The position numbers were made by a program, and so were the translations under genes. A stretch of DNA of 25,809 nt from Myxococcota bacterium (GTDB lineage: Bacteria; Myxococcota_C; UBA6777). Below the pieces are notes generated by a model that saw only the letters and a program-made list of their open reading frames with translations, had not been told where the DNA came from and ran no database searches. Of this stretch, positions 1,497-24,177 are shown piece after piece (position 1 is the first letter of the stretch; each line of letters opens with the position of its first letter). The stretch lies in assembly GCA_023150835.1 (NCBI GenBank), contig JAKLKB010000098.1:1-25809 (forward strand). The letters are read 5' to 3'.

Positions 1497-1798
1497 TTGC
1501 GCACACTCGTTTTGGGGTTTTCGGGCAAAGCAGCCCCAGTATGGCACGAGGGCGGCAAAAAAACCAACACCGACCCATCGATGACCTTTTCCGCATCGGA
1601 AAGTTCTCATCATAGGAGTGACGTTGTTGGATGCCAACGTTCTTCCCCAAGCCATCGGCCTCTTTTGTGGGCGCAAAACCCCCGAACAAGGAAGTCGCTT
1701 GCTTGTCTCGCACGACTCCGCTACACTACGGTCGCTGCGTAGCACCAAAACGACGCAAACCCAAAGCGTCCTTCGCTCACAAGAGACGCAAGAGGCCG
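1497..1798. other. Divergent intergenic region
   Basis: This 302-base stretch separates the left protease-like gene from the plus-strand Pro-rich protein gene. The open frame of the Pro-rich protein continues upstream to 1631, but a good promoter (1699-1727) lies inside that extension, so it is treated as non-coding. No other structure was seen. Confidence 0.5.
1699..1727 (+). promoter_or_regulatory. Predicted sigma70-type promoter
   Basis: TTGCTT at 1699-1704, a 17-base spacer, and TACACT at 1722-1727. Transcription would start near 1734, about 65 bases before the chosen start at 1799. This supports the shorter N-terminus of the downstream protein. Confidence 0.45.
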
Positions 1799-4700
1799 AT
1801 GATGTTCACCCCCCCCAAACCCAACGCTCCCAAAAACACCGATGCCCAACAAGCATCGCGTGCCTCCGAGTCTTTGGGTGTCTCCGAATTTGATAGCCTT
1901 GCGGACGAGTTGTCCTCTTTCTCCGAAGGTCTTTTTGAAAGCGAAGACGATCTCAATGCCCTCAACCGCCCGATGAAGACGGCCTCTCGCTCCGCCTCGC
2001 AATCTTCTTTGCCCGCCAACCGCAACACCCGCCCCACCGCAGCTTCCTCCGCTCTCCCCAAACCTCCAATCGGCCTGCCTTCTCCCCCACCCCTGCCCGC
2101 CAAACCCACCCTCTCCAAATCCCCCATTCCTTCTTCAATGGCCTCCAAGCCCCCGCCTCTTCCCGCCCCCTCCACAAGCTCCACGACCTCTCTTGACCCC
2201 TTCTCCGCCCTCCAAAATGACCCCTTCGCCAGCAGCCAAGGGCTAGATGAATCTTTTTTGCCCAAACCCAACGCCACTTCCCTTCATTCTTCCGCTCCCA
2301 TCCCCAAAGACACCATGCAAGTTCTGGCGTTGACACCTCCCCCTCCACCCAAATCCTCCCCCTCTCCGCTGTTCGGCTCTCACGGCGATCACGACGATCC
2401 CGCAGAAACACAACGCGAGATCAAAAAACCCGACTTTGCAAACAAAACGCAACGTCCCGGCCCCAAAGAAGTCCTCAACAACCCACCCGACGAGTTGTGG
2501 CTTCCCGTCGAAGACGAGAAAAAGTCCAGTCGAGCGACCGATCGGGTCTTTACCATTGATGATGTACCCAACATGCCATCACGCGGTTCACGACCCCCAT
2601 CCCGTCCTCCCACTCCACCCATGCCGTTTGGAACGCCTGCTGCGAACGCACACGCAGACACAGGAGACAGCACCATGATGTCCCCTCACGCGCTCCAACC
2701 CAACGATTTCCGCCCTCCTGCGGCCCATCCCCCCAATCCCTTTTCTTTTCATCAGGACGACGACGCCAACAACGTCATGTCCCTTGAATTGCTCGAAGAC
2801 GACGACGAGGGCGACAGCACCATGATGTCCCCGCATCGCGATCTCGAAGGAGACGATGACGGCGACAGTACCATGCTCGCGCCCAACTTGAACAACACAG
2901 AAGCCTCTCCCTCCCTCGGTTGGGGGGATCCCAATCCTTGGCAAAGCCCCTCTCATGGCCTCACCGAGTCTACCGCACCACAAGACGACTGGTACGGACT
3001 GGGAGATGCCCTTCATTCTCCCGAAGAACTCAGCCCTTCTTCTTCTTCCATCGCAGGATTTGCCTCTTCTTCGCCAAGCGGTGCCTACGCTCAACCTCCA
3101 CCCTCTCGTAGTGGCGCTTATTCTCAACCCCCGCAGCTTCGCAATGATCCCTACGCTCAACCTCCACCCTCCCGCAGTGGCGCTTATTCTCAACCCCCGC
3201 AGCTTCGCAATGATCCCTACGCTCAGCCTCCGCAGTCTCGCAGCGGTGCCTATCCACAACCACCCGCATTCTCAGGAAATCCACCCGCGCCATATCCTCC
3301 TGCCTACGAAAACAACTCCGTCTATCCACCCGCGCCCTCGTCATTCCAACAACCGTCAGCTCCCTACATCGCAGCTTCACCTGTGGCCTCTGCCCAGCCT
3401 TTCGGCTCCTACGCCCAAAGCGGCGCGTATCCGCAACCAAGTTATCCCCAAGCCGCCTCCAACCCCTTCGCCCATCCTGCTACACCCAGCGGGGCTTATC
3501 CGCAGCCTTCTCTCGATCCGACCCTTGCTCCTGACGGTAGCGGTTCGCACTCTTATCCTCCCCCTCAGTCCGACGCTGCTGCGGAAAGCTATCGCTCGTA
3601 TGCTTATCCCGGAGGCCCCTCCAACCCGCTCTCCCAACCTGCGCAGGCTCCCCCGACTTGGCCGCCCCCCGCTGCTCGCCCCCAACCGCCCGCTCTTCCT
3701 GTGGTTGGCCGAGGAGGCGCACACGCACGCGGTGGCGTCCCCATCGCAACATCACGCAGCAGCGCCTCGCTTGACTCCCTTGAGGCTGTGCAGCCCTCGC
3801 GATCCGCACCACCACCGTTTGATCCACGCGAAGCTGAAGCCTTGATCGCCGAAGCCGAGGCCGTCGCCCGCGTCGGAGCAGGAGCCTCGTACGTCGGCCC
3901 TACCCCCAAACCAGAAAAAAAGCGCAGGATGGGGTTGGTTGTTCTTCTTTTGTTGATCCTCGTCACTTTTGGGACCGTGACAGCGGCTCTTTTCGCATTC
4001 CGCTTTTGGGATCGCAAAGAATTTGTCACCAAAGCCCCGCAAAATCGGGCTTCGTGGGCTGACCCCCAAATCGTTCGACGCCAAGCCCCCCCTCCCACTC
4101 CCATCGTATCGCCCGCACCTGTCGCCGATCCACCCACCCAAACCAACACGCCTTCCGATCCTTCCGTCGGCTCGACACCATCACAGCCACGCCCTCCCAC
4201 ACCGCCTCGCCCCTCCGCGCCGCCTCCGACCCAAAAACCCGAAGACTCCGACTCCAAAAAGCCCGAAGACTCCGACTCCAAAAAGCCCGAAGACTCCGAC
4301 TCCAAAAAGCCCGAAGACTCGGAACCTACTCGTGCGCGCAAAACCGACGACAAAACCGACGACAAAACCGACGACAAAACCGACGACAAAACCGACCAAG
4401 ACACTCCCAAACCGCCTATTTCTCGGGGAAAAGTGACAAAAAAGCAGCCCTCTCGCAAAGTTCCCCCCGTACGGCGAAAAACCACCGTCGCGGCAGCAAC
4501 ACCCGAACCCACAACAGCGAGTGGCTTGCGCATCTCGATCCAACCGGCCTGTACTCTTTACGAAAAAGGCCGATCTTTGGGAAAAACAGACAACCCCATC
4601 CTTCTTCAACGCAGTTCGGGCACGTACCAGTTCTTGTGCAAAGAAGAGAAAAAGCTGCTCTTTTACTCGTTTTCCGTCACGGTGCCTGCAAGCGGGCAAG

Positions 4701-4966
4701 CCGAGTACACAAAGACCTTGCGCCCCGGGACGCTGTACGTTCATTCTCGCCCGTGGAGCATGGTGTACTCCAAACGCTACGGAAAGCTGGGGCGTTCAGG
4801 CGGCCCGATTCTGCTTTACGAAGGCACCTACGACCTTCTTCTCTACAAGCGGGGTTCCCTGATCCCGGGTCCCGGGATGCAACTTCAACAGCGCGTCACC
4901 ATCCGACCCGGCCAGACAACGCGAACGCCCGCACTTGAATTTCCTGCCCAAGACGACGACGAATAA
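1799..4966 (+). CDS. Pro-rich single-pass membrane protein with PEGA-like C-terminus
   Basis: The protein has 1055 residues from the ATG at 1799 (AGAGG just upstream; a second ATG at 1802 is equally usable). Residues 1-700 are low complexity, rich in Pro/Ser/Ala, with an acidic motif GDSTMM(S)P at residues 289, 338 and 355 (third copy GDSTMLAP) and a 22-residue Tyr/Gln/Pro tandem repeat from residue 430. A basic KKRRM precedes a single transmembrane helix at about 711-735. After it come a Pro-rich linker, four KPEDSDSK units (813-844), four KTDD units (848-863), and a beta-rich C-terminal region (about 909-1045) with the feel of PEGA-type surface domains. With no N-terminal signal peptide, the long N-terminal part is probably cytoplasmic and the C-terminus periplasmic. 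It may be a scaffold or a kinase substrate; no enzyme domain was seen. The next gene starts 68 bases downstream and is probably co-transcribed. Confidence 0.8.
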   Translation: MMFTPPKPNAPKNTDAQQASRASESLGVSEFDSLADELSSFSEGLFESEDDLNALNRPMKTASRSASQSSLPANRNTRPTAASSALPKPPIGLPSPPPLPAKPTLSKSPIPSSMASKPPPLPAPSTSSTTSLDPFSALQNDPFASSQGLDESFLPKPNATSLHSSAPIPKDTMQVLALTPPPPPKSSPSPLFGSHGDHDDPAETQREIKKPDFANKTQRPGPKEVLNNPPDELWLPVEDEKKSSRATDRVFTIDDVPNMPSRGSRPPSRPPTPPMPFGTPAANAHADTGDSTMMSPHALQPNDFRPPAAHPPNPFSFHQDDDANNVMSLELLEDDDEGDSTMMSPHRDLEGDDDGDSTMLAPNLNNTEASPSLGWGDPNPWQSPSHGLTESTAPQDDWYGLGDALHSPEELSPSSSSIAGFASSSPSGAYAQPPPSRSGAYSQPPQLRNDPYAQPPPSRSGAYSQPPQLRNDPYAQPPQSRSGAYPQPPAFSGNPPAPYPPAYENNSVYPPAPSSFQQPSAPYIAASPVASAQPFGSYAQSGAYPQPSYPQAASNPFAHPATPSGAYPQPSLDPTLAPDGSGSHSYPPPQSDAAAESYRSYAYPGGPSNPLSQPAQAPPTWPPPAARPQPPALPVVGRGGAHARGGVPIATSRSSASLDSLEAVQPSRSAPPPFDPREAEALIAEAEAVARVGAGASYVGPTPKPEKKRRMGLVVLLLLILVTFGTVTAALFAFRFWDRKEFVTKAPQNRASWADPQIVRRQAPPPTPIVSPAPVADPPTQTNTPSDPSVGSTPSQPRPPTPPRPSAPPPTQKPEDSDSKKPEDSDSKKPEDSDSKKPEDSEPTRARKTDDKTDDKTDDKTDDKTDQDTPKPPISRGKVTKKQPSRKVPPVRRKTTVAAATPEPTTASGLRISIQPACTLYEKGRSLGKTDNPILLQRSSGTYQFLCKEEKKLLFYSFSVTVPASGQAEYTKTLRPGTLYVHSRPWSMVYSKRYGKLGRSGGPILLYEGTYDLLLYKRGSLIPGPGMQLQQRVTIRPGQTTRTPALEFPAQDDDE
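3086..3265 (+). repeat. 66-base in-frame tandem repeat
   Basis: Two full 66-base units (3086-3151, 3152-3217) and a partial third (3218-3265), each coding 22 residues beginning YAQPP and ending QLRNDP. They are nearly identical in DNA, suggesting recent expansion within the Pro-rich protein gene. Confidence 0.9.
4235..4399 (+). repeat. 24-base and 12-base in-frame tandem repeats
   Basis: Four 24-base units coding KPEDSDSK lie at 4235-4330 (the last degenerate). Four 12-base units coding KTDD lie at 4340-4387, followed by a degenerate fifth to 4399. Together they form a highly charged periplasmic linker after the transmembrane helix. Such short perfect repeats are prone to length variation. 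Confidence 0.9.
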
Positions 4967-5034
4967 CCCCTTTCGCGTACCTTGCGGCGCACCCCGCGCA
5001 TCTTGCGCTTGTGTGCCTTCGATGGAGCAACATC

Positions 5035-6267
5035 ATGGAAGAATTCATCCGCGCTCTGCCCCCTCCTGCCAAAAAAGCCCTCGAACCCGACGCACCCACC
5101 AAGATCAAAAAATTGGCTGCCTCTGGGCGCTTGCCCATGTCGCCCCTTCAACAGATCACCCTACTTTACCTTTTAAGCTTTGATTCCGATACCGATATCG
5201 CCCAAACGGCGGTCCAATCCATCCAAAATCAGCCCGAAAGCACGCTGCTCACCCTGACAAGCCAAGAAGAAGCACCGCTCGAATTACTCGATTTCTTAGC
5301 CCGCCACACCTACCATCTCGACGCCGTCCTTCACGCGCTGATCCTTCACAAAAATACGCCTGATCCGATCCTCGCTTGGTTGGCTTCGCACATCCAAGGC
5401 CCCTCGCTCGATCTGATCGCACTCAACCAACAACGACAACTCCGCCACCCTCCTGTGCTCCTCTCCCTCCTTCAAAACCCCCACCTCAACGAAGCATTGC
5501 GCGCACGCGTCGCCGAATTCGCACTCCGCTCCAAACTCGAAACGGGACTCTCCCAACAACAACTCGCCGCTCTCCTTGGAAAAGAAGGCGCACAAGAACT
5601 TCTTTCCGCTGCACAAGCTGCACAAGCCGCACAAGCCGCAAAAGCCGCTGAAGAAGCCGCAAAAGCCGCACAGGCTGCAAAAGAAGCTGCCCTCGCGGCA
5701 CAAGAAGCCGAAGAGATCGCGTCAGACGAAGTGTTTGAAGACGATGAAGAAGGTGAGATCCCGCTAGAAGAAGGCCCCTCCCAAGCGGAGATCGATGCAG
5801 CGTTTATCCCAGAAGAGTTCGTCAAAGAAACCCCCGGCGAATCCGAAGACAAAGCGCCAGAAAATGTCGTTCAAAAATTGCTACAGATGACGGTTTCACA
5901 AAAGATCAAAGCGGCCTCCAAAGGAAACAAGCAAGTTCGGGGACTTTTGATCAACGAGTCCAACCGCTTGATCGCGGCTGCGGTGTTGAAAAACCCCGGC
6001 CTGACAGACGGCGAAGTCATCAAGATCGCAGCCAGTCGTTCTGTGAGCGGCGATGTGATCCGACAGATCGCCACCAACCGCGAATGGATGCGCATCTACC
6101 GCGTAAAAGTTGCCCTCGCAAGCAATCCCAAATGCCCGCGTGGCGTGGCTTTGCGCATCCTCCCCACCCTGCGCAAAAACGATATCCGCGATATCGCTAA
6201 AAACAAAGGCATCTCCAGCCAAGTCGCTGGAGCCGCGAACAAACTCTACAAACAAGGACTTGGATGA
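5035..6267 (+). CDS. Unknown protein with Ala-rich coiled coil and helical-repeat ends
   Basis: The protein has 410 residues from the ATG at 5035, preceded by GGAG 7 bases upstream; the frame stays open to 5011 but has no better start. Residues 1-190 are helical and resemble HEAT-like or DUF2336-like repeats (several phrases about a rest, a loss and a helix pair). Residues about 193-229 are a run of AAQAAKAAEEA type, a likely coiled coil, followed by an acidic stretch (about 230-260). Residues about 275-410 carry short helical repeats such as NRLIAAAVLKNPGLTD and NREWMRIYRVKVALASNP. There is no signal peptide, so it is probably cytoplasmic. It follows the Pro-rich membrane protein by 68 bases, so the two may work together. 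The function is not recognised. Confidence 0.85.
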   Translation: MEEFIRALPPPAKKALEPDAPTKIKKLAASGRLPMSPLQQITLLYLLSFDSDTDIAQTAVQSIQNQPESTLLTLTSQEEAPLELLDFLARHTYHLDAVLHALILHKNTPDPILAWLASHIQGPSLDLIALNQQRQLRHPPVLLSLLQNPHLNEALRARVAEFALRSKLETGLSQQQLAALLGKEGAQELLSAAQAAQAAQAAKAAEEAAKAAQAAKEAALAAQEAEEIASDEVFEDDEEGEIPLEEGPSQAEIDAAFIPEEFVKETPGESEDKAPENVVQKLLQMTVSQKIKAASKGNKQVRGLLINESNRLIAAAVLKNPGLTDGEVIKIAASRSVSGDVIRQIATNREWMRIYRVKVALASNPKCPRGVALRILPTLRKNDIRDIAKNKGISSQVAGAANKLYKQGLG

Positions 6268-12419: not shown

Positions 12420-13319
12420 TTAAGCAAGAAGCATCGAGCGAAACCACCGATGCAACGGCGCATTCGTCAAGCGCTCTGGCCAAAACATCGCGATCGATAT
12501 CGCAGGAACCTCGACAGGAAGCGGCCTCGACAACAACGGCGCATAAACGCACATACGCTCCACGAGGCGGCGCGGGATCGTCGCGATCATATCGGAATCT
12601 TGGAGCGTCATCCATTGAAGGATGTAGCTTTGCACAACAAGACCCACATGGCGCGGCGGAGCATCAGCCTCTTTTAAACTGTCATCCACAGGCGACGACG
12701 GTGTACCACGCACCCTGACGTTGATGTGCGGATAATGCAGATAATCCTCAAGCGCCAACGATGCTTTTTCGGAAAGCGGATGCCCTGAACGAAACACGCA
12801 GACATACTCGTCCTCAAACACTTTTCGTTGCATCAGACTCCCTCCGTCTTTGAGGGTGCCTCCAAAAAAGACATCCACCTCGCCGCTCTCCAACAGATCG
12901 GCTCGCCGAAAATCAAGGTGCAAGACACGTACAGACATCAACGGAGCCTCCCGCTGTATCCGCTGCAAACGCTCCAACAAAAAGACCGTCGAGACATAAT
13001 CCGAAGCACGGATCTCAAACGTCTCTCGCACCCGAGCAGGATCAAACTGCGCAGGAGCGATCAGCTCCTCCCCCGCTTGAAACATCCGCTGCAACGGCGC
13101 AAACAGATCTTCGGCTCGTGGAGTCGGCAACAGCCCGTTGGAGGTTCGCACAAACAGCGGATCTTGAAAAACCGTTCGCAAATGCCCTAACAACCGACTT
13201 GTTGCCGACTGGCTCAGCCCCAAACGCTCCGAAGCTCGGGTTAAGTTGCGTTCCTCTAACAACAGTTGCAGCGCCCTTAATTCCCGAAAACTCAACTGCT
13301 CGATTTGCGTTTTTTGCAT
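12420..13319 (-). CDS. LysR-family transcriptional regulator
   Basis: The protein has 299 residues from the ATG at 13319 with GAGGGA 7 bases upstream. An N-terminal winged helix-turn-helix (about residues 8-66) has the family hallmarks LTRASERLGLSQSATSRLL and DPLFVR. The remainder is the two-lobed periplasmic-binding-protein-like effector domain, lengthwise normal. The effector is unknown. LysR genes usually control a divergent neighbour, here the collagen-like lipoprotein gene starting 202 bases away. It reads toward the roadblock-like gene. The open frame runs 24 codons further upstream but those residues do not belong to the family. Confidence 0.92.
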   Translation of the reverse strand: MQKTQIEQLSFRELRALQLLLEERNLTRASERLGLSQSATSRLLGHLRTVFQDPLFVRTSNGLLPTPRAEDLFAPLQRMFQAGEELIAPAQFDPARVRETFEIRASDYVSTVFLLERLQRIQREAPLMSVRVLHLDFRRADLLESGEVDVFFGGTLKDGGSLMQRKVFEDEYVCVFRSGHPLSEKASLALEDYLHYPHINVRVRGTPSSPVDDSLKEADAPPRHVGLVVQSYILQWMTLQDSDMIATIPRRLVERMCVYAPLLSRPLPVEVPAISIAMFWPERLTNAPLHRWFRSMLLA

Positions 13320-13520: not shown

Positions 13521-15230
13521 ATGCAAACACGTACCCTTCCACAGAAAAGAACATATCTGCTTCTCGCCCGATGGTCCTTGATAGCCTGTTTGGTGTTATT
13601 CACCGCTGCTTGTGCAGGTCCAGCCGGACCCAAAGGCGACGCTGGCCCCAAAGGTGACACCGGAGCCGCAGGCGCAAAAGGTGACGCAGGCGCAAAAGGC
13701 GATGCAGGCGCAAAAGGCGATGCAGGCGCAAAAGGCGATGCAGGTGCAAAAGGCGATGCAGGTGCAAAAGGCGATGCAGGCTCCCCCGGTCTATCGGGCA
13801 TCCCGGGTCTCCCGACAACGCCGTCTTGGTCGGCAAGCCACGAGATCCAACTACCGGGCGAGCGATTTTATCCCGAAGGGATCGCCATCTCGTCCGATGG
13901 TACGGTGTACGTCGGAAGCATCGCGACAGGTGAGATCCTCCGCCAGTCACCCACACAACGCAAACCAGAAACCTTCGTCGCAAGCGGCGGCGATATCGTC
14001 CAAGCTGTCGGCCTTTTGGTGGATGAACCTCGCAAGATCCTGTGGGTTTGCTCGGCGGATCTCTCCAACGCCCAACCCCCCCGCATCGTCGCTGTGGATC
14101 AAACAACAGGACAAGTCCGCGCCAAACACAATATGACGGGATTCTGCAACGACTTGACCTTGGACAACAACGGCAACCTCTACGCCACCAACTCCTTCGG
14201 ATCGCAGATCTACCGCGTCCCCGCTGCCCAAGCCCTGCAAAACAACAGCGCCACCGTCTGGAAAACAGATCCGCTGTTTGCCATCGACAAACAAGGCGAC
14301 TTTGGCCTGAACGGTATCGTATACAACGGCAAAGACGCCCTTTACACGGTGCATACAGCACGCGGAACGCTTTTGCGTATCCCCATCCAAAACGATGGAA
14401 GCGCCGGAACAGTCGCAAAGATCACTCTCAGCCGCTCTCTCGTCGCAGGCGATGGGTTGAAGATGATCAACGACACCACCCTTGTGGTGGCTGAAAACTT
14501 CGCCGATCGCCTCAGTGCGATCACCCTCAATGGCAACCAAGGCACCGTTCGCGTCTTGTCTTCGCGCCTCGATAAGCCCACCACCTTCGCCGTCTATGCA
14601 GGTAGCGCGTGGGTGGTCGAAGGCCAACTCGATCACCTTGTCGGTGCAGATCCCAATCCTCCGAGCTTGCCGTTCTTGATCCGACGGGTCGATCTGCCCT
14701 TTGTGATGCCTTTGTCCTCCTTCGACATGATCGGGCGTTGGAAAAGTGAATCCTGCGAAACCCTCCAAGCCAACGGCCAAACCAACTACCTCACCCGCGA
14801 CTTTATCGTGAGCGATCGCCGCTGGTGGCTCGAATTCACCATCCACGCCGACAAAGACTGTAAAAACCCCTTGTTCTCTTCCCGTATCAACGGCCCTTAC
14901 ACGCTGCTCGGTTTCTCCAAAGACGTCCCCGACGCAACCCAAGGCAACTTCTCTTATACCTCGATCCAATTCATCGCACACACCGAAGACTTCGCCAAAA
15001 CCTTCACCCAAAGCCAATGCGGTACAAAACCTTGGGCCGTCGGCGTCCCCCAAGAAGTCGGTGGCACAGGATGTATCGGTGTGGCTCCCAAGATCGCTGA
15101 CTGCCCGACCGATCACGACATCGTCAAGATCGAAGGGGATAAGCTCTTCTTCGGCACTCGCGAAACCGATATGTGCAAACCCGAAGGCCGCCCCAAAAAA
15201 CTCAATGTCCCCGTCATCCGCGAAAAATAG
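13521..15230 (+). CDS. Lipoprotein: collagen-like stalk, beta-propeller, APCDD1-like domain
   Basis: The protein has 569 residues from the ATG at 13521 (GGAG 11 bases upstream). The signal peptide ends in the lipobox L-F-T-A-A-C, with Cys31 as lipidation site. Residues 33-98 are 22 uninterrupted Gly-X-Y triplets, including six GAKGDA units. Residues about 105-400 are propeller blades of the SMP-30/NHL type (phrases such as GIAISSDGTVYVGS, NDLTLDNNGNLYATNS, AGDGLKMINDTTLVV). Residues about 402-562 (GRWKSESCE, then LTRDFIV, CGTKPWAVGV, GCIGV, LFFGTRETDMC) resemble the APCDD1 domain known from animal Wnt-inhibitor proteins. The protein is probably anchored in the outer membrane with the stalk lifting the propeller. 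A LysR gene diverges from it. The catalytic activity, if any, is unknown. The propeller and stalk are clear; the APCDD1 match is a recollection of pattern. Confidence 0.85.
   Translation: MQTRTLPQKRTYLLLARWSLIACLVLFTAACAGPAGPKGDAGPKGDTGAAGAKGDAGAKGDAGAKGDAGAKGDAGAKGDAGAKGDAGSPGLSGIPGLPTTPSWSASHEIQLPGERFYPEGIAISSDGTVYVGSIATGEILRQSPTQRKPETFVASGGDIVQAVGLLVDEPRKILWVCSADLSNAQPPRIVAVDQTTGQVRAKHNMTGFCNDLTLDNNGNLYATNSFGSQIYRVPAAQALQNNSATVWKTDPLFAIDKQGDFGLNGIVYNGKDALYTVHTARGTLLRIPIQNDGSAGTVAKITLSRSLVAGDGLKMINDTTLVVAENFADRLSAITLNGNQGTVRVLSSRLDKPTTFAVYAGSAWVVEGQLDHLVGADPNPPSLPFLIRRVDLPFVMPLSSFDMIGRWKSESCETLQANGQTNYLTRDFIVSDRRWWLEFTIHADKDCKNPLFSSRINGPYTLLGFSKDVPDATQGNFSYTSIQFIAHTEDFAKTFTQSQCGTKPWAVGVPQEVGGTGCIGVAPKIADCPTDHDIVKIEGDKLFFGTRETDMCKPEGRPKKLNVPVIREK
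13671..13778 (+). repeat. Six 18-base collagen-coding tandem repeats
   Basis: Six consecutive 18-base units, each coding GAKGDA, nearly identical (GGC/GGT and GAC/GAT variants only). Likely to vary in copy number between strains. Confidence 0.95.
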
Positions 15231-15480
15231 AAGAGATCAGCCACATCATCCGATGGTTTTGGTGGGGCGTTGCCCCATAGGCGTTAGGTGAAGCGGAGGA
15301 AAGCCCCCCACCCCGCCCTCCCCCGTGAACAGGGGAGGGAGCGAAAGTCGAAAGCATCGGGGATTTTGTTTTTTCATGACGCACGCTGTATGCACCAAAT
15401 GCAGACGCTGCCCGTTCCAACTTCCCCCCGTTGGCCGGGGGGATTGAGGGGGGGAGAAAAAAAAGGCGATCAAGACCGAC
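15231..15480. other. Intergenic block with three hairpins
   Basis: After the lipoprotein stop there are three palindromes. TGGGGC-GTT-GCCCCA lies at 15263-15277. Arms CCCTCCCC (15316-15323) and GGGGAGGG (15332-15339) have an 8-base loop. Arms TCCCCCCG (15423-15430) and CGGGGGGA (15436-15443) have a 5-base loop. They could end transcription of the lipoprotein gene or be degenerate intergenic repeats. No gene was seen here. Confidence 0.6.
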
Positions 15481-15501: not shown

Positions 15502-15538
15502 CAAGGCGCCTATGGGGCGTTGCCCCATACGCGCCTTG
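15502..15538. repeat. Long near-perfect hairpin (family C)
   Basis: Arms CAAGGCGC-C-TATGGGGC and GCCCCATA-C-GCGCCTTG around loop GTT: 16 paired bases with a single C/C mismatch. Its centre repeats the TGGGGCGTTGCCCCA palindrome of 15263-15277, so both belong to one small family. It lacks a T-tract on either side, so it is not a textbook terminator. Confidence 0.75.
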
Positions 15539-15630
15539 CGAACATTTGATCCAACTAATTGGACGTCATTTTTACGAAGAATTTGATTTTGTTGAAAAAA
15601 ATCTCACACAACAACAGAATTCGCTCATGG

Positions 15631-15725
15631 GCATCCTCCTTTGCACAAAAAAATGCACTCGATAGGATGTCGGCATCCTCCTTTGCACAAAAAAATACAC
15701 TCGGTAGGATGTCGGCATCCTCCTT
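15631..15725. repeat. 42-base tandem repeat, 2.3 copies
   Basis: Units start at 15631, 15673 and 15715 (partial), each opening GCATCCTCCTTTG and ending in AGGATGTCG. The junctions AGGATG-TCGG-CATCCT form a 6-base-pair hairpin. The unit length is a multiple of three, but no translation with a credible RBS was found. It lies about 75-170 bases before the mmsA promoter. Confidence 0.85.
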
Positions 15726-15800
15726 TGCCAAGAAGCAGCCCGATCAAAAGACTTCGATCCTCCATCGACGGACTCTTTCGACAGCACACACACAGCAGGC

Positions 15801-15873: not shown

Positions 15874-17355
15874 GTGTTCACCATCAAAAATTATGATTTC
15901 CAGACCGTCGAAGATGTCAAAAACTGGATCGGGGGCCAATGGGTCGATGCTGCGTCAGGAGCGCGATTGGAAGTGACCAACCCGCGACATGGCAAAGTGA
16001 TGACGCACGTTGCTTTGAGCGCGGCCTCGGATGTGGATGCTGCTGTTCAAGCGGCAAAAGCCGCATTTCCGGGATGGAAAGCCACCCCGATGAAAGAGCG
16101 CGCCCAAGTCTTGTACCGCGCCAAGGCCATTATGGAACGCGACGCACGCGATCTCGCATGGCTGATCTCCCACGAAAACGGCAAAACCTTTGAAGAAGGT
16201 CTCGCCAGTGTCGCCAAAGCCGTTGAATGCCTCGAATTTGGTTGCTCTTTGCCCAACATCCAAACAGGCGGGATCTCGTTTGTCAGCCGAGGGATTACTT
16301 GTGAGACGCACTACGAACCGCTCGGTGTCTGCGCAGGGGTCGTGCCGTTCAACTTTCCGATGATGGTGCCGATGTGGATGCTTCCCCAAGCCCTCGTCGC
16401 AGGCAACTCCTTTGTGCTCAAACCCTCCGAACAAGTGCCGATCGGTGCAAGTATGTTGGCGCGGATCTTCCGCGAAGCCGGACTCCCCGATGGAGTCTTA
16501 AACGTCGTCAACGGCGCAAAAGAAGTCGTCGAAGCCCTTTGCGATCACCCCGAGATCAAAGCGATGGCTTTTGTGGGTTCGACCAAGGTGGCCAAACTGC
16601 TCTATACACGGGGCGCACAGACAGGCCGTCGGATGCTTTGCCTTGGCGGTGCGAAAAACCATCTGATCGTCGTCCCCGATGCCGAAGTCGAGATGACCTC
16701 GGTGGATATCCTGCGTTCCTTTACGGGCGTCTCAGGGCAACGCTGCATGGCGGCATCGGCCATGATCGCGGTCGGTGATGTGCAACACATCATCGATGCT
16801 GTGGTTGCCAAAGCGCGGGCGCTCAAACTGGGCGAAGAGATGGGGCCGATCGTCAGCGCAACAAGCCTCAAGCGCATACACGGCTACATCGAACAAACCG
16901 AAAAACTCGGCGGAAAGATCTTGCTCGATGGGCGTGGAGCCACCGTGACAGGCGCAGAAGGCGGCCACTGGCTCGCTCCCACCATCCTCGAAGTCACTGC
17001 CGAGATGCCCGCCTACCGCGACGAGATCTTTGGGCCGATCCTCAGCATCGTGCGCACCAAAACCCTCGACGAAGCTCTCCACCTTCAAAACACCCACGAA
17101 TACGCCAACGGCGGCTCGATCTACACCACCACAGGCTCGACAGCGCGCTACGCTTCAAGCCGCATCAATGCAGGGATGTGCGGGATCAACATCGGTGTAC
17201 CTGTGCCACGCGAACCCTATTCTTTCGGTGGATGGGACAACAGCAAGTTTGGGCACGGCGATATCACCGGCATCGACGGCTATTATTTCTGGACCAAACC
17301 GCGCAAGATCACAACCAAGTGGGCGCTTCAACCCGACGCCACTTGGATGAGCTAA
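15874..17355 (+). CDS. mmsA: CoA-acylating methylmalonate/malonate-semialdehyde dehydrogenase
   Basis: It oxidises malonate semialdehyde or methylmalonate semialdehyde with NAD+ and CoA, giving acetyl-CoA or propionyl-CoA plus CO2. The protein has 493 residues from a GTG with AAGGAG 7 bases upstream. The catalytic Cys is Cys291 in GQRCMA (family position about 287). The Glu that deacylates ordinary aldehyde dehydrogenases is replaced: the segment reads LGGAKNH, as in MmsA/IolA, which use CoA instead of water. PFNFPMMVPMWM and IFGPILSIVR are further family signatures. The neighbouring genes point to the last step of uracil/thymine breakdown, though valine or inositol breakdown uses the same enzyme type. 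The aminotransferase gene begins 12 bases downstream, so they form an operon. Confidence 0.95.
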   Translation: MFTIKNYDFQTVEDVKNWIGGQWVDAASGARLEVTNPRHGKVMTHVALSAASDVDAAVQAAKAAFPGWKATPMKERAQVLYRAKAIMERDARDLAWLISHENGKTFEEGLASVAKAVECLEFGCSLPNIQTGGISFVSRGITCETHYEPLGVCAGVVPFNFPMMVPMWMLPQALVAGNSFVLKPSEQVPIGASMLARIFREAGLPDGVLNVVNGAKEVVEALCDHPEIKAMAFVGSTKVAKLLYTRGAQTGRRMLCLGGAKNHLIVVPDAEVEMTSVDILRSFTGVSGQRCMAASAMIAVGDVQHIIDAVVAKARALKLGEEMGPIVSATSLKRIHGYIEQTEKLGGKILLDGRGATVTGAEGGHWLAPTILEVTAEMPAYRDEIFGPILSIVRTKTLDEALHLQNTHEYANGGSIYTTTGSTARYASSRINAGMCGINIGVPVPREPYSFGGWDNSKFGHGDITGIDGYYFWTKPRKITTKWALQPDATWMS

Positions 17356-17367
17356 GGAGCCGACATC

Positions 17368-18690
17368 ATGGACAGCCAAACAATGGTCGAATGGTGTAAA
17401 AAATACACCCTGTATTCGTGGTCTGCGACCGGAAAAGTCGATCCCACCCCTGTTTCCCGCGCTGAAGGCATCTACTTCTGGACCCCCGAAGGCAAGCGCT
17501 TTATCGATTTCAACAGCCAACTGATGAGCGTCAACATCGGACACAGCCATCCCAAAGTCGTCGCCGCCATGAAAGCCGCGATGGATCGGGTGTTGTTTGT
17601 CCACCCCGGAACCGCCACCGAAGCCCGCGCTCGCTTGGGCAAAAAGATCGCCGATCTGATGCCCGGCAACCTCAACACCTCCTTCTTTACACTCGGTGGG
17701 GCCGAAGCCAACGAAAATGCCATCCGCGCTGCTCGCCTCTACACGGGACGACACAAACTGATCAGTCGCTACCGCAGCTATCATGGCGGAACCAACGCCA
17801 CCATGCAGCTTACGGGCGACCCCCGACGTTGGCCCAACGAACCCGGGATGCCGGGCGTGATCCACGTCATGGACCCCCACCCGTACAACTATTCCTTCGG
17901 CAAAACCGACGCCGAGATCACCCGCGAAAACCTCAAATACCTCGAAGAGATCATCGCTTACGAAGGCCCTCACACCATCGCTGCGATGTTTATCGAGACC
18001 GTCACAGGCACCAACGGCATCCTCGCTCCCCCCGAAGGCTACCTCCAAGGTCTTCACGCTCTCTTGAAAAAACACGGGATCTTGTTGGTTTGCGACGAGG
18101 TGATGGCGGGTTGGGGACGCACAGGCAAGCTCTTTGCGTTCCAACATGGCGATATCATCCCCGATATCGTGACAATGGCCAAAGGGCTTACCAGCTCCTA
18201 TACCCCCCTTGGCTGTATGGTGGTCAGCGACCCGATCGCCGAACACTTCCGTGAAAACGTGTTTTGGGGTGGACTCACTTACAACGCCCATCCCTTTTTG
18301 TTGGAAACTGCGCTCGCTGTGATCGAGGTCTTTGAAGAAGAAGGCATGCTCGAAAACGCCGAACGCATGGGCCGTGTGATGCGCGCTGAGATGGATCGCC
18401 TCAAGATCAAACATCCCTCCGTCAAAGAAGGCCGATGTATCGGTCTATTTGGGATCATCGATCTTCAAAAGAACCGACAAGGCGATCCGATGGCCCCCTT
18501 CAACGGCTCCAGCCCCGCCATGCAAGCGATCTCCAAGTTCTTCCACCAAGAAGGTCTCTTCACTTTCCTGCGCTTCGGCGGATTTATGTGCAACCCTCCC
18601 CTTTGCATCACCGAAGAACAACTCCACGAAGCCTTCGCGATCATCGATCGTGGCCTCGATATCACCGACCGCTACGTCGAAGACGCCTGA
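17368..18690 (+). CDS. Class III aminotransferase (probable beta-alanine / beta-aminoisobutyrate transaminase)
   Basis: This PLP-dependent enzyme transfers the omega-amino group to pyruvate or 2-oxoglutarate. The protein has 440 residues from the ATG at 17368, with GGAG in the gap after mmsA. The PLP lysine is Lys272 in TMAKGLTSSY. Asp243 in LLVCDEVMAGWGRTG contacts the PLP ring nitrogen. GGAEANENAIRAAR and RYRSYHGGTNAT bind the cofactor phosphate. Overall the sequence resembles the taurine/beta-alanine:pyruvate group. Because it is coupled to mmsA and the pyrimidine genes, the likely substrates are beta-alanine (from uracil) and beta-aminoisobutyrate (from thymine), giving the semialdehydes that MmsA consumes. 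Substrate choice is inferred from context. Confidence 0.92.
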   Translation: MDSQTMVEWCKKYTLYSWSATGKVDPTPVSRAEGIYFWTPEGKRFIDFNSQLMSVNIGHSHPKVVAAMKAAMDRVLFVHPGTATEARARLGKKIADLMPGNLNTSFFTLGGAEANENAIRAARLYTGRHKLISRYRSYHGGTNATMQLTGDPRRWPNEPGMPGVIHVMDPHPYNYSFGKTDAEITRENLKYLEEIIAYEGPHTIAAMFIETVTGTNGILAPPEGYLQGLHALLKKHGILLVCDEVMAGWGRTGKLFAFQHGDIIPDIVTMAKGLTSSYTPLGCMVVSDPIAEHFRENVFWGGLTYNAHPFLLETALAVIEVFEEEGMLENAERMGRVMRAEMDRLKIKHPSVKEGRCIGLFGIIDLQKNRQGDPMAPFNGSSPAMQAISKFFHQEGLFTFLRFGGFMCNPPLCITEEQLHEAFAIIDRGLDITDRYVEDA

Positions 18691-18899
18691 TACGACATCC
18701 GCACCACCGCAACGTCCGATCGTGTGGGTGTTGGCGGACACGAGATCCGTTGTGTGCGCTAACACGTAGGGGCAGCCCCCTGTGGCTGCCCTATTACAGG
18801 GCGTCTACCGCCGATCGCACCTACCCTTCGCACACATATCTCGGATTATCGTATGATCCTCGAAGACGCCTGAGCCTTCACCGCACCACCAACATCCGA
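18678..18899 (+). repeat. Imperfect direct duplication flanking repeat A3
   Basis: Copy 1 (18678-18719) covers the last codons and stop of the aminotransferase gene and the bases just after. Copy 2 (18861-18899) lies downstream. Both share CGAAGACGCCTGA exactly, then CCGCACCACC, then a similar end (..CGTCCGA / ..CATCCGA). Everything between the copies is essentially family A copy A3 with short flanks. Confidence 0.75.
18741..18853 (+). repeat. Dispersed repeat family A, copy A3
   Basis: 113 bases from CGAGATCCGT to CGGATTATCGTA. Hairpin arms GGGCAGCC (18770-18777) and GGCTGCCC (18784-18791), loop CCCTGT. It lies between the aminotransferase and transporter genes. Confidence 0.85.
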
Positions 18900-18960
18900 G
18901 CAAAACAGACCCGATATCTTTGGCCTCCAAACCATCCCACCAAACCAGAGGGGTTTTCTC

Positions 18961-20730
18961 GTGGCGAAGCTACACGCAGAACACGACATTTACGAACTGA
19001 CCGAGACTTCCGACCTTGATCCCGCCCTAAGCAACGAAGATCTCTTGCCCACCGCCCTTGCTCATCGCTCGTGGAATCTTTGGCACCTTGCTTCTCTTTG
19101 GGTGGGGATGGCTGTTTGCGTCCCCACCTATATGCTTGCTTCCAACATGATCCTCGGCGGCCTTTCTTGGAAAGAAGCGCTGATGATGATCTTACTTGGC
19201 AACGTGATCGTCGCGATCCCGATGGTCTTTAACGGCCATGCAGGCACCAAGTACGGCATCCCTTTTCCTGTACTCGGGCGCGCATCCTTCGGATACAACG
19301 GGATCCATATCCCAAGCGTCTTGCGTGCCATCGTGGCGTGCGGCTGGTTTGGCATCCAAACATGGCTCGGTGGACTCGCCATGATCGCGATCTTTGCGGT
19401 CATCGCAGGGAAACCCGCATGGAACCAATCTTGGAACGCTCAATTTGTCGGATTCATGGTCTTTTGGGGCATCCAGATGTTTTTTGTCTGGAAAGGAACG
19501 GAAAGCATCAAGTGGCTTGAGACCTTGTCGGCTCCCTTGCTGATCTTGATCGGCTTGGGGATGTTGTATTGGGGCATCAGCAACGGCGGGGGGTTCGCCA
19601 AAGTCCTCTCTTCCTCCGAAGTCTTCCGCGAAGCCAGCGTCGTCTTTGTCAAAGAAAAAGCCGGTGCCACCTCGGCGCATCTGCGTTTGCTTGCCGGAAA
19701 AGACGGGAAGATCCGCGCCCACGCCTACCGCGCAAAACTGCTCACAAAAGCCGAAACCACCGACGAAGACAAATGGAAAGCCGCCCTCAGCAAAACGCCC
19801 TTTTTGCCGCTCTCTTCCAAGCAAATCCAGTTCTCCGCCGCCCTGTCCAAAAACGCCACCACCCTCGCCATCCAGTTTCAAGGCACAAACCAAAAGCACC
19901 TGAGTTCGGTCGTGATCGCTCCTTTGTATGCAGCCTTCCCCGCCAAAAACACACAAACGCCCCTTTCCACCTATCTTTTTTGGTTGACGGCGATGGTGGC
20001 TTTTTGGGCCACCCTCGCTCTCAATATCCCCGATATCACACGCTACGCCACCTCCCAAAAAGACCAGATCGTCGGGCAGTTCTTGGGCCTTCCCACCACG
20101 ATGGTCTTGTATTCTTTTATCGGTGTCGCCGTCACTTGCGCAGCGATCTTGATCTTCGACGATATCTTGATCGCCTCCGATGCACCGTGGGATCCTGTGC
20201 GCTTGCTTGCTCGCCTCGAAGACAAGCCCTTTCTGCTCATCCTCTCGCAGTTTGCGATCATCCTTGCCACGCTCTCAACCAACATCGCCGCCAACATCAT
20301 CTCCCCCGCCAACTCCTTTGCCAACCTCTGGCCTCAACGCATCACCTTCCGAATCGGCGGTCTGTTGGCCGGGATTATCGGTATCTTGATCATGCCTTGG
20401 AAACTCCTTGGCGTAATCGTCGGCTTCTTGCTTACCTACGGCGCACTTCTCGGACCCGTGATCGCTATCCTTCTTGCCGACTATTTCTTCCTCCGCAAAA
20501 AACAACTCGCCCTCGATGAACTCTACAAAAAAACGGGCCGCTATCACTACATCCAAGGTTTTAATCCCCACGCCTTGATCGCCCTCGCTCTCGGTATCGC
20601 CTTCGTCCTCGTCGGATACTCCGTCCCCTCCCTCAAGATCCTCTACGACACAGGCTGGTTCTCTGGCTTCTTCTTCTCTTTTGTCGTATACATCGGCCTG
20701 ATGAAAGCACGCCACAACGCCCCTGCCTGA
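18961..20730 (+). CDS. NCS1-family nucleobase/hydantoin transporter with extra domain
   Basis: A cytoplasmic-membrane symporter for uracil, thymine, hydantoins or allantoin. The protein has 589 residues from the GTG at 18961, with AGAGGGG 7 bases upstream. NCS1 signatures are clear: HRSWNLWHLASLWVGM in helix 1, GHAGTKYGIPFPVLGRASFGYNG before helix 3, and ATLALNIPDITRYA at helix 6. About twelve helices are expected. It is about 100 residues longer than Mhp1-type carriers (about 490) because of a hydrophilic segment at about residues 206-335 between helices 5 and 6; by the Mhp1 topology this faces the periplasm. Uracil/thymine uptake is inferred from neighbours. It starts 270 bases after the aminotransferase gene. 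No strong promoter was picked out. Confidence 0.92.
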   Translation: MAKLHAEHDIYELTETSDLDPALSNEDLLPTALAHRSWNLWHLASLWVGMAVCVPTYMLASNMILGGLSWKEALMMILLGNVIVAIPMVFNGHAGTKYGIPFPVLGRASFGYNGIHIPSVLRAIVACGWFGIQTWLGGLAMIAIFAVIAGKPAWNQSWNAQFVGFMVFWGIQMFFVWKGTESIKWLETLSAPLLILIGLGMLYWGISNGGGFAKVLSSSEVFREASVVFVKEKAGATSAHLRLLAGKDGKIRAHAYRAKLLTKAETTDEDKWKAALSKTPFLPLSSKQIQFSAALSKNATTLAIQFQGTNQKHLSSVVIAPLYAAFPAKNTQTPLSTYLFWLTAMVAFWATLALNIPDITRYATSQKDQIVGQFLGLPTTMVLYSFIGVAVTCAAILIFDDILIASDAPWDPVRLLARLEDKPFLLILSQFAIILATLSTNIAANIISPANSFANLWPQRITFRIGGLLAGIIGILIMPWKLLGVIVGFLLTYGALLGPVIAILLADYFFLRKKQLALDELYKKTGRYHYIQGFNPHALIALALGIAFVLVGYSVPSLKILYDTGWFSGFFFSFVVYIGLMKARHNAPA

Positions 20731-20738
20731 TCCAACAC

Positions 20739-20766
20739 TTGATAAAACCGACACTTTTTTTATACC
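20739..20766 (+). promoter_or_regulatory. Candidate promoter upstream of dihydropyrimidinase
   Basis: TTGATA at 20739-20744, a 16-base spacer, TATACC at 20761-20766. It would give a leader of about 440 bases containing family A copy A4. A second, weaker candidate is TTGTCC (21057-21062) with TGTATC (21080-21085). Confidence 0.35.
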
Positions 20767-20800
20767 CGCTACTTTACAATTTTGTTCCTCAGATGCTCAT

Positions 20801-20910
20801 CAAATCCGCCTGTTGAGTGATCGTAAAAACGTAGGGGCAGCCCCCTGTGGCTGCCCAAGAATCGGGCGTCTGTGTACTCTCTTACGATCACAGATCATTC
20901 GGATTTCGTA
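20801..20910 (+). repeat. Dispersed repeat family A, copy A4
   Basis: 110 bases, starting CAAATCCGCC and ending CGGATTTCGTA. Hairpin arms GGGCAGCC (20835-20842) and GGCTGCCC (20849-20856), loop CCCTGT. Very close to A1 in the first half. Confidence 0.85.
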
Positions 20911-21215
20911 GGAGTACCTCGCCCCATCAAGCAACACCCTGATCGGTCGCCACTCTCCTGAAGAGATGCGTACACGAAACATTGTCGCGATTCGCTGTGA
21001 TTCTTGCTTTTTCCGTGCTTTCCGTGTTTTGCGAAGCGCGCAACTCCCGTTGGTCGTTGTCCGTGGACTCTTTTTGTGTTGTATCACCGATGACTTGCAG
21101 CTTCATGAAAAATATGGCAGGGTGGGTGGTTCGGTTTTCGGTCTCTTTCGTATGGCTTGGCGCAAACCATCGACGCGGAGAGTCCTGCGTCGCACGACAT
21201 GGAGGGGTTGTTTTC
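20911..21215 (+). other. Leader region before dihydropyrimidinase
   Basis: About 305 bases without a supported gene. The dihydropyrimidinase frame remains open up to 20982, but the extra 78 residues do not fit the family and the ATG at 21216 has a strong RBS. Only a weak promoter candidate at 21057-21085 was noted. Confidence 0.5.
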
Positions 21216-22598
21216 ATGGGTCTATTGATCAAGAACGGCGAGATCATCACCGCAAGCGAACGCTACACCGCCGACATCTACTGTGAAGGCGAAACCATCA
21301 CACGCATCGAAAAAGATATCACCCCGCCTCCCGATGCCACCGTGATCGATGCAACAGGAAAATATGTCTTCCCCGGTTTTATCGATCCACACACACACAT
21401 CTACCTCCCTTTTATGGGAACATTTGCCAAAGACACCTATACAACGGCCAGTCAAGCAGCCTTGGTGGGAGGGACGACCACCTTTATCGACTTCTGTATC
21501 CCCATGCGCGGCGATGAACCCCTCGCTGCATGGGACACATGGAACGCCCACAGCGAAGGTAAGTCCGCTTGTGACTACACTTACCACATGGCCGTCACCC
21601 GCTACGATGCCGGCGTCGAAAGCCAACTGCGCGAGATCGTCCGCAACGGCGTCTCTTCTTTTAAGGTCTTTTTGGCCTACAAAGGGGCCTTTGGCGTCGA
21701 TGACGAAGAACTCTACCACACCCTCAAACTCGCCAAGTCTTTGGGAGTGATCACCACCGCTCACTGCGAAAACGAAGTGATCGTTGCAGAACTCCAAAAA
21801 GAACTGGTCGCCCAAGGCAAGATCGGCCCTGAGTGGCATTATTACAGCCGCCCTCCCCGCGTCGAAGCCGAAGGAACTCACCACCTCACCACTTTCGCAG
21901 AGATCCACAACGCACACGTCTACATCGTCCACCTTAGCTGCGATGAAGCCCTTCAAGTCGCCGCCCAAGCCAAGTATCGCGGTGTCAACGTCTGGGTCGA
22001 AACGCTGATCCAGTACCTTCTTCTCGATAAAACTTATGCTGAACTGCCCGAGTTTGAGGGAGCCAAGTATGTGATGTCCCCACCGCTGCGCGACAAACGC
22101 AACCAGTCGATCTTGTGGGACGCCATCCGCCATCAACTCGTCAGCACCGTCGCCACCGACCACGCTCCCTTTGACTTCAATGGGCAAAAGCCGATGGGGA
22201 AATCGGACTTTACCAAGATCCCCAACGGCATCCCCGCCCTCGAAGATCGCGTCAATCTGCTTTACACCTACGGCGTCAAGACGGGAAAGATCGACCTGCA
22301 CCGTTTTGTCGACTCCGCAAGCACCCAAGCCGCCAAGATCTTTGGACTGTATCCCCGCAAAGGTACCATCCAACTCGGCGCAGATGCCGACCTTGTCGTC
22401 TATGACCCCCACTACACACGCACGCTCTCGAAATCCACCCAACTGATGAACGTCGACTACAGCGCCTTCGAAGGCTGGAAGATCGAAGGCCGCCCCCACG
22501 TTGTCACGGTTCGCGGTGAGATCGCTGCCCGCGATGGAAAATTTGTCGGAACCGTCGGACGTGGGCGCTTCTTGAAACGCGATCCCAACCACTTTTAA
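21216..22598 (+). CDS. hydA: Dihydropyrimidinase (D-hydantoinase family)
   Basis: This binuclear-zinc amidohydrolase opens dihydrouracil/dihydrothymine to N-carbamoyl-beta-alanine/-aminoisobutyrate. The protein has 460 residues, the normal length, from the ATG at 21216 (GGAGGGG 8 bases upstream). All metal ligands are present: His59 and His61 in DPHTH, Lys150 in SSFKVFLAYKG (carboxylated lysine), His183 in TAHCEN, His239 in HLSC and Asp315 in TDHAPF. These positions almost coincide with those of characterised D-hydantoinases. The beta-sandwich ends are normal. It lies between the transporter and preTA genes, so it acts right after the reductase. Hydantoin hydrolysis as a side activity is possible. 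Confidence 0.95.
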   Translation: MGLLIKNGEIITASERYTADIYCEGETITRIEKDITPPPDATVIDATGKYVFPGFIDPHTHIYLPFMGTFAKDTYTTASQAALVGGTTTFIDFCIPMRGDEPLAAWDTWNAHSEGKSACDYTYHMAVTRYDAGVESQLREIVRNGVSSFKVFLAYKGAFGVDDEELYHTLKLAKSLGVITTAHCENEVIVAELQKELVAQGKIGPEWHYYSRPPRVEAEGTHHLTTFAEIHNAHVYIVHLSCDEALQVAAQAKYRGVNVWVETLIQYLLLDKTYAELPEFEGAKYVMSPPLRDKRNQSILWDAIRHQLVSTVATDHAPFDFNGQKPMGKSDFTKIPNGIPALEDRVNLLYTYGVKTGKIDLHRFVDSASTQAAKIFGLYPRKGTIQLGADADLVVYDPHYTRTLSKSTQLMNVDYSAFEGWKIEGRPHVVTVRGEIAARDGKFVGTVGRGRFLKRDPNHF

Positions 22599-22625
22599 CC
22601 CCCGACAGGATCGACGCCGTTGACA

Positions 22626-22763
22626 AAAACCCCGTGCTCGCGCCGTTTCAAGCGGCAGAGTCGTTTGACTGAAAAACTTCTGACCACCCCACCAATACGG
22701 GGTCAAGGGAGCCGCGCTCTGTGGCGGGGTGTGGGACAATGCCCCACAAATCTATCCAATCGC
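22626..22763 (+). repeat. Dispersed repeat family B, copy B1
   Basis: About 138 bases starting ACCCCGTG.TCG.GCCGTTTCAAGCG, with GGGGTCAAGGG in the middle and an end palindrome (TGTGGG...CCCACA). The reverse complement of 25483-25623 aligns along its length. It lies between the dihydropyrimidinase and preT genes. Confidence 0.85.
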
Positions 22764-22833
22764 GTCGATCCTATTCCAAACATCCAGTACGCCCGACCAA
22801 CCCACACCGCATCTTGCGACGGAAGAGGAATCT

Positions 22834-24177
22834 ATGAGTGAACACGTCGGATCTTCCTACAAACTCGGCGAACTCAAACCCGCCATGAGCCGCAACGAAG
22901 CCCTTGCAGAAGCCCATCGTTGCCTCTTTTGCTACGATGCACCTTGCACACGCGCTTGCCCCACCCACATCGATGTCCCCCGCTTTATCAAAAAGATCGC
23001 CTCCGATAACCTCCAAGGCTCCGCACAAACCATCCTCGAAGCCAACATCCTCGGCGCTTCTTGCGCTCGCGTCTGCCCCACCGAAGTCCTCTGCGAAGGC
23101 GCTTGCGTCCTTCACGACCTTCACGACAAACCCATCAAGATCGGACGCCTCCAACGCTACGCCACCGATCCTTTTGTGTACAAAGATATCCCCCTCTTCC
23201 AAGCCGGCGAACCCACCGGCAAAAAGATCGCCATCGTCGGCGCTGGCCCCGCAGGACTCGCTTGCGCGCATGAACTCACGCGATTTGGGCACTCTGTGAT
23301 CGTCTTTGAAGCCCAAGATCGACCGGGTGGACTCAACACCTACGGCATCGCCGATTACAAACTTGACACCGAAACCTCCCTCAAAGAAGTCGAATGGGTC
23401 CAATCCATCGGCTTTACCATCCAAACCAATACCCGCATCGGCCAAGATATCCACATGGCCGAATTGCTCCGTGATTACGATGCCGTCTTTGTCGGCGTTG
23501 GACTCGGACAGATCCCCCCCCTCGGGATGCCGGGCGAAGACCTCCAAGGCTACCAAGATGCCCTTGTCTTTATCGAAGATCTCAAATTCAAGCCCCTTGA
23601 CCAGATCTCCCTCAAAGGCCAACGCATCGCCGTAATCGGCGGCGGAAACACCGCCATCGATGCCGTTTCCCAATCCGCAAGCCTCGGGGCCGAAAAAGTC
23701 TACATGATCTACCGCCGCAGCCGCGAAGATATGGGAGCCTACGATCACGAGATCGATCTCGCCCTTCGCAAGGGTGCTGTCGAGATCCTGTACATGGCAC
23801 AACCTGTCCAGATCCTCGGAAAAGACGGTCGCGTCGTCGGGATCGAGTGCGTTCGTCATCGCCTCGGCCCCCCCGATCCACGCGGCAAACACCACATCGA
23901 AGTGATCGAGGATAGCGCTTTCATTCTTCCCGTCGATCGGGTCTTTCGCGCCACAGGACAAGCCAAACATCGCGATTTCTTTGCAGGCATCGAAGGACTC
24001 CAAGTCGACGCTTCGGGCCGCGTGGTCGTCTCCAAAGGCGGCCAGACCTCCGTCCCCAAACTCTGGGCCTCAGGCGATTGCGTCAACGGCGGAAAAGAAG
24101 TCGTCAACGCCGTCGCCGAAGGAAAATCCGCAGCCCAACACATCCACCAAGCGCTGGAGGCACAGGCTCATGGCTGA
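22834..24177 (+). CDS. preT: Dihydropyrimidine dehydrogenase subunit PreT
   Basis: PreT takes electrons from NAD(P)H through FAD and Fe-S clusters and passes them to PreA, which reduces uracil/thymine. The protein has 447 residues from the ATG at 22834 with AAGAGG upstream. Cys30, 33, 38, 42 and Cys77, 81, 87, 91 have the same spacing as the eight N-terminal Fe-S cysteines of mammalian enzyme (79, 82, 87, 91, 126, 130, 136, 140), and Gln107 falls where the unusual Gln ligand (156) lies. The FAD site is GAGPAG at 136-141 and the NAD(P)H site GGGNTA at 269-274. The frame is open 35 codons upstream, overlapping repeat B1, but these residues do not fit. preA overlaps its end by 8 bases. Confidence 0.95.
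   Translation: MSEHVGSSYKLGELKPAMSRNEALAEAHRCLFCYDAPCTRACPTHIDVPRFIKKIASDNLQGSAQTILEANILGASCARVCPTEVLCEGACVLHDLHDKPIKIGRLQRYATDPFVYKDIPLFQAGEPTGKKIAIVGAGPAGLACAHELTRFGHSVIVFEAQDRPGGLNTYGIADYKLDTETSLKEVEWVQSIGFTIQTNTRIGQDIHMAELLRDYDAVFVGVGLGQIPPLGMPGEDLQGYQDALVFIEDLKFKPLDQISLKGQRIAVIGGGNTAIDAVSQSASLGAEKVYMIYRRSREDMGAYDHEIDLALRKGAVEILYMAQPVQILGKDGRVVGIECVRHRLGPPDPRGKHHIEVIEDSAFILPVDRVFRATGQAKHRDFFAGIEGLQVDASGRVVVSKGGQTSVPKLWASGDCVNGGKEVVNAVAEGKSAAQHIHQALEAQAHG

Follow-up and report, generated by a model that had tools for sequence, protein, structure and literature searches.

ABD2 of the animal protein APCDD1 has a pocket of 350 cubic angstroms in which stearate was found; it binds stearate and palmitoleate, and it contains two intradomain disulfides (PMC10193966). 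The β-propeller of Deinococcus radiodurans SodC (DrSOD) has six blades, holds Ca2+ through Glu200, Asn290, Asn339, and Asp381, and acts as a lactonase on 2-coumaranone; the activity is weak, and acyl-homoserine lactones are not hydrolysed (PMC12362111). Here we describe a protein in which relatives of both domains are joined. It is encoded in the window, by which we mean the whole stretch of 25,809 nucleotides analysed (Myxococcota contig JAKLKB010000098.1). The protein is almost certainly a collagen-tethered bacterial lipoprotein whose head consists of a Ca2+-binding, lactonase-type propeller and a single APCDD barrel homologous to ABD2. The source of this collagen-stalked APCDD–propeller lipoprotein is a lake bacterium.

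The lipoprotein gene and its stalk

The open reading frame at 13521-15230 (+) is translated without interruption into 569 residues, in the order signal peptide with lipobox, Gly-X-Y triplets, β-propeller (about 108–391), and C-terminal APCDD domain (401–569). ORF translation and profile searches thus bear out the coordinates and domain order given in a preliminary description of this DNA. The N-terminus, MQTRTLPQKRTYLLLARWSLIACLVLFTAAC, forms a signal peptide with a relaxed lipobox (residues 1–31; 13521..13613, +). Lipidation is predicted at C31, which is followed by Ala at +2. The FTAAC motif fits the relaxed PROSITE pattern, in keeping with the lipobox first claimed, and the Thr at −3 makes it a weak lipobox.

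The stalk follows directly, as an uninterrupted run of 22 perfect Gly-X-Y triplets, mostly GAKGDA, at residues 33–98 (13617..13814, +). It passes the Pfam Collagen profile (37.4 bits versus a cut-off of 27.2), and the triplet count of the preliminary description is exact. The underlying DNA includes an 18-bp tandem array of 6.3 copies at 13668-13781. A collagen triple helix rises 0.286 nm per residue, so that 66 residues would extend about 19 nm. A second species of the genus carries the same gene with 18 triplets; the gene is therefore not an assembly chimera, and the stalk is retained between the two species while its length drifts. Chance low-complexity Gly-X-Y sequence is ruled out as well, since the perfect 22-triplet run is kept in the sister species despite the changed repeat number. 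Eukaryotic contamination or a chimeric contig was likewise rejected, given the bacterial flanking genes (LysR, pyrimidine breakdown), the recurrence in a second species, and the relatives in many genomes. One of these relatives lies on a single-contig 16-Mb assembly whose contamination estimate is 15%. No plasmid match was found, and the window contains no Rfam match.

Repetitive tethers of other kinds occur in APCDD relatives, namely (PVGGE/A)n in L033, (GE)n in L034, (TD)n in L052, and (MMGGEP)n in L061. A repetitive tether thus appears common in the APCDD family, with collagen being the choice of the window's lineage. The preliminary picture of a bacterial APCDD domain on a collagen stalk is accurate as to the presence of both parts, but other bacterial proteins have the domain too, on non-collagen repeats. 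Collagen matches are present in all five genomes of the window's family that were compared. In the window's own genome (G000), collagen sequence is carried by about 14 ORFs that differ in their C-terminal parts (e.g., L105, L106, L108, L109, L114, L116, L120, L121, L124, and L141). Several have a lipobox, and the heads of several look YadA-like by eye or are Cys-rich. Some other collagen matches in this genome fall at contig ends, as if the assembly had broken in shared repeats.

Such ORFs bring to mind an adhesin, in which a trimeric collagen stalk would present heads for attachment and the two domains would serve as generic stickers. The number of collagen-bearing ORFs in the genome and the YadA-like heads of several fit this proposal. 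A Ca2+ site of catalytic type and a LysR partner are untypical of adhesins, however, and the relatives have non-collagen tethers, so that we consider an adhesin quite improbable.

The APCDD barrel and the propeller

The C-terminal domain (residues 401–569; 14721..15227, +) was first likened to APCDD1 by its residue pattern, and profile and structure comparisons now establish the likeness. The window protein matches PF14921 with 40.4 bits against a gathering cut-off of 27 (E 2.9e-10). A phmmer search of PDB sequences matches mouse APCDD1 twice, weakly in ABD1 and strongly in ABD2, the latter match spanning residues 401–560 with an independent E of 1.9e-10; blastp gives 30% identity to mouse ABD2 over 170 residues. 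An AlphaFold2 model of the domain, made from a six-row alignment (pLDDT 81.8, pTM 0.77), has the two curved sheets and the helix-loop part of ABD1 and ABD2. With this model, Foldseek places eight APCDD1 chains on top (E 2e-11 to 4e-10, the best 2.3e-11; TM 0.78–0.81), and VIA-align superposes it on ABD2 with a Z of 19.4 and 1.8 Å over 156 residues. The next family in VIA-align is VtrC, with a Z of 10.6.

The domain's six cysteines form three predicted disulfides, C412–C447, C500–C518, and C528–C552. Among 38 bacterial APCDD domains compared, each pair is mostly lost jointly: both, neither, or one of the cysteines is present in 31, 7, and 0 domains for the first pair, 34, 3, and 1 for the second, and 29, 7, and 2 for the third. 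The first two pairs align with those of ABD2, and would form the same disulfides; the third pair is bacterial.

Since lipocalin-like barrels are common folds and fill the lower rows of the fold comparison, the resemblance to APCDD1 could in principle be convergence of a small calycin-like barrel with no homology. This is scarcely credible given sequence homology at E 1e-10, the cysteine pairs common to ABD2 and the window domain, and the drop in Z from 19.4 to 10.6 at the next family; we reject it. A second proposal is that the protein carries envelope lipids or bile-salt-like amphiphiles in the manner of a lipocalin, the propeller serving as a protein–protein docking platform. The next-best folds, VtrC and ToxS, belong to bile-salt sensing, and lipocalin-like lipoproteins are found with them. 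But these matches are far weaker than that to APCDD1 (Z 10.6 and below versus 19.4), the long stalk suggests outward placement rather than envelope traffic, and the adjoining genes are not envelope genes. A carrier of this kind is accordingly unlikely.

The propeller (13836..14696, +) had been described as SMP-30-like. A propeller it is, but its score against Pfam SGL (PF08450, SMP-30/gluconolactonase) is 14.9 bits, below the cut-off of 26.3, and it is therefore not filed under that family. Instead, phmmer matches 9m58, the Deinococcus radiodurans SodC propeller, over the whole domain (E 8.5e-13), and 9m58 and 9m59 are the top Foldseek matches for the propeller model (E 1.9e-12), of which the last third is of low confidence (model residues 204–297 have a pLDDT below 50). 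The nearest solved relative of the window propeller is thus the Ca2+-dependent lactonase domain of Deinococcus SodC. The index of the 9m58 chain and the numbering in PMC12362111 differ by an offset of 21, which fits all four ligand residues. In the alignment, the predicted Ca2+ ligands, all on the plus strand, are E119 (13875..13877) for Glu200, N210 (14148..14150) for Asn290, N264 (14310..14312) for Asn339, and D311 (14451..14453) for Asp381. The Glu/Asn/Asn/Asp quartet is intact in the window protein, its sister, all three reversed fusions described below, and the majority of the 33 propellers in the alignment. In L067 and L068, the stand-alone propeller lipoproteins closest to the window's, one Asn ligand is replaced by Asp, so the chemistry may differ within this clade.

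The bacterial family, its fusions, and its LysR neighbor

PF14921 itself scores above its cut-off in 3 of 386 genomes, a sample taken for the most part from across bacteria, and two of the three belong to the window's own genus. With a profile that includes bacterial members, the domain is found in 6 of these 386 genomes, in 21 of 377 genomes of one phylum, and in 19 of 183 genomes of one order within that phylum. A scan of named genomes, with an alignment narrower than the full-domain one, gave five APCDD loci, with Myxococcota MAGs and, more distantly, Bradyrhizobium rifense among the carriers. The typical bacterial relative has 200–250 residues, consisting of a lipobox, a short tether, and one APCDD barrel, mostly with no propeller. 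Judged by these matches, single-APCDD lipoproteins are a sizeable, widespread bacterial family. No description of a bacterial APCDD domain was found in the literature searched, and bacterial PF14921 members may already be listed in public databases without comment.

Three relatives, L033, L034, and L056, are reversed fusions, in which the tether is followed by the APCDD domain and then the propeller; in the window protein the propeller comes first. The propeller tree places the window's propeller with L067 and L068 (support 99/98), the latter having a short collagen-like stalk of its own, and those of the reversed fusions with the stand-alone L066 (support 96/92). A single clade of all fused propellers is rejected (p-AU 0.0014). 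In the APCDD tree, a single fusion followed by domain shuffling is not rejected (p-AU 0.154). The simplest reading would be that one APCDD subfamily recruited propellers twice, separately and at opposite ends. A propeller protein is present in 9 of 21 genomes with APCDD versus 31 of 356 without; with the fused cases left out and genomes of any size counted, the figures are 6 of 18 versus 31 of 356 (p 0.005). A further locus, L052, has at 1180-2459 an APCDD ORF with its (TD)n tether and then, in a frame that overlaps it, part of a propeller; this may be a reversed fusion with a frameshift.

A LysR-type regulator (12423..13319, −; Pfam HTH_1 and LysR_substrate) lies divergent to the lipoprotein gene, 201 bp from its start codon. 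The arrangement recurs: LysR divergently adjoins the APCDD gene in 14 of the 25 loci whose upstream side is visible, Bradyrhizobium included. The pairs include those of the window and L032, L033, L035, L043–L047, L049–L051, and L062. The excess is far beyond chance against an assumed LysR background of 2–5%, with related loci counted as if independent. The adjoining regulators belong to two LysR subfamilies. No conserved APCDD neighbor other than LysR was found among the loci compared, and the smaller neighbor clusters seem to consist of ORFs that overlap or are in the wrong frame, or of a common sigma-54 activator.

Downstream, at 15874-25459 (+), is an apparent reductive pyrimidine-breakdown cluster with genes for an aldehyde dehydrogenase, a class III aminotransferase, an NCS1 permease, an amidohydrolase, and PreT/PreA-like proteins. 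A functional link to these genes was considered but finds no support, because a 640-bp gap with repeats intervenes and the arrangement is not kept elsewhere. Two copies of the intergenic repeat TGGGGCGTTGCCCCATAGGCG (15263-15283 and 15513-15533) and a 42-bp tandem repeat (15630-15755) lie downstream of the lipoprotein gene. Elsewhere in the window, two long ORFs, 1631-4963 (+; 1111 aa) and 5011-6264 (+; 418 aa), have no Pfam match.

Candidate functions and comparison with known systems

Given the intact lactonase-type Ca2+ site, the head probably combines an enzyme with a lipid-binding barrel. Our best reading, which we hold tentatively, is a surface hydrolase under LysR control with an acyl chain held in its APCDD barrel, as follows. 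A small molecule sensed by the divergent LysR protein would switch on the lipoprotein gene. The product would be exported, lipidated at C31, and tethered to the outer membrane by a collagen triple helix of about 19 nm. The propeller would then use its Ca2+ to hydrolyse a lactone or ester of hydrophobic character, and the adjoining APCDD barrel would capture an acyl chain, either that of the substrate or that of the product. The substrate cannot be read from the Ca2+ site, as DrSOD is weakly active and does not act on acyl-homoserine lactones; for the latter reason we make no claim of quorum quenching. Nor can catalysis be the function of the whole APCDD family, because the bacterial APCDD lipoproteins mostly lack a propeller.

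The main rival is a device for binding only, in which the propeller is a binding scaffold and acylated molecules (lipopeptides, lipidated signals, or free fatty acids) are sequestered at the surface by the APCDD barrel, as APCDD1 is thought to titrate WNT. The fatty acids bound by ABD2 (PMC10193966), the enzyme-free single barrels that make up most bacterial relatives, and the changed Ca2+ ligand in two propellers of the window's clade are all consistent with it. Weighing against it are the four ligands intact in the window protein and in all three reversed fusions, and a pairing with APCDD that arose with two different propeller lineages; binding alone is possible but doubtful. The preliminary description had suggested a new cell-surface binding device. 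Its APCDD1 identification stands on profile and fold, but binding would be only part of the matter in a protein whose propeller has an intact lactonase-type Ca2+ site. We thus return to the surface hydrolase with an acyl-holding barrel as the preferred reading.

The family bears also on the animal protein. It is conceivable, if rather doubtful, that the animal APCDD1 domain descends from the bacterial family, a single LysR-controlled, acyl-binding lipoprotein having been acquired by early animals and duplicated into ABD1 and ABD2. Mouse ABD2, the one animal sequence in our trees, falls amid bacterial sequences nearest L060, in a placement that has no support. L060, a fragment, resembles mouse ABD2 more closely than the other bacterial APCDD sequences do (about 40% over 96 residues), and its frame lacks the N-terminal part of the domain. 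Through the bacterial family, the origin of an animal WNT inhibitor can be put to the test, and its single-APCDD members, many with a dedicated LysR, are simpler proteins for testing ligand and function. That the barrel has repeatedly been fused to a Ca2+ lactonase-type propeller hints at the kind of molecule it meets in bacteria.

Comparison with known systems sets the protein apart from each. Like the bacterial collagen-like proteins Scl1/Scl2, Lcl, and BclA, it has a perfect Gly-X-Y run rich in KGD, but the heads and anchor are different, there are only 22 triplets, and the trimer is presumed. It shares with DrSOD (9m58, 9m59) a homologous propeller, the Glu/Asn/Asn/Asp Ca2+ site, and fusion to a second domain. 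That second domain is Cu/Zn-SOD in DrSOD and APCDD here, in a predicted lipoprotein on a stalk. The periplasmic barrels VtrC and ToxS are the second-best fold match to the APCDD model, with a Z of 10.6 or less, 6–10% identity, and no sequence homology found. With animal APCDD1/APCDD1L (PF14921; 8e0p, 8e0r, 8e0w), the window protein has in common the ABD2 fold at about 26–30% identity, both ABD2 cysteine pairs, and a cell-surface placement, predicted in its own case. In contrast to the two apposed barrels of APCDD1, ABD1 and ABD2, there is one barrel, with which the sequence ends, and a predicted lipid anchor replaces the single-span transmembrane helix. With one barrel only and no transmembrane anchor, the window protein is, by its sequence, an APCDD-domain protein and not an APCDD1 orthologue; it differs from APCDD1 also in having a third cysteine pair, a propeller, a collagen stalk, and a LysR neighbor.
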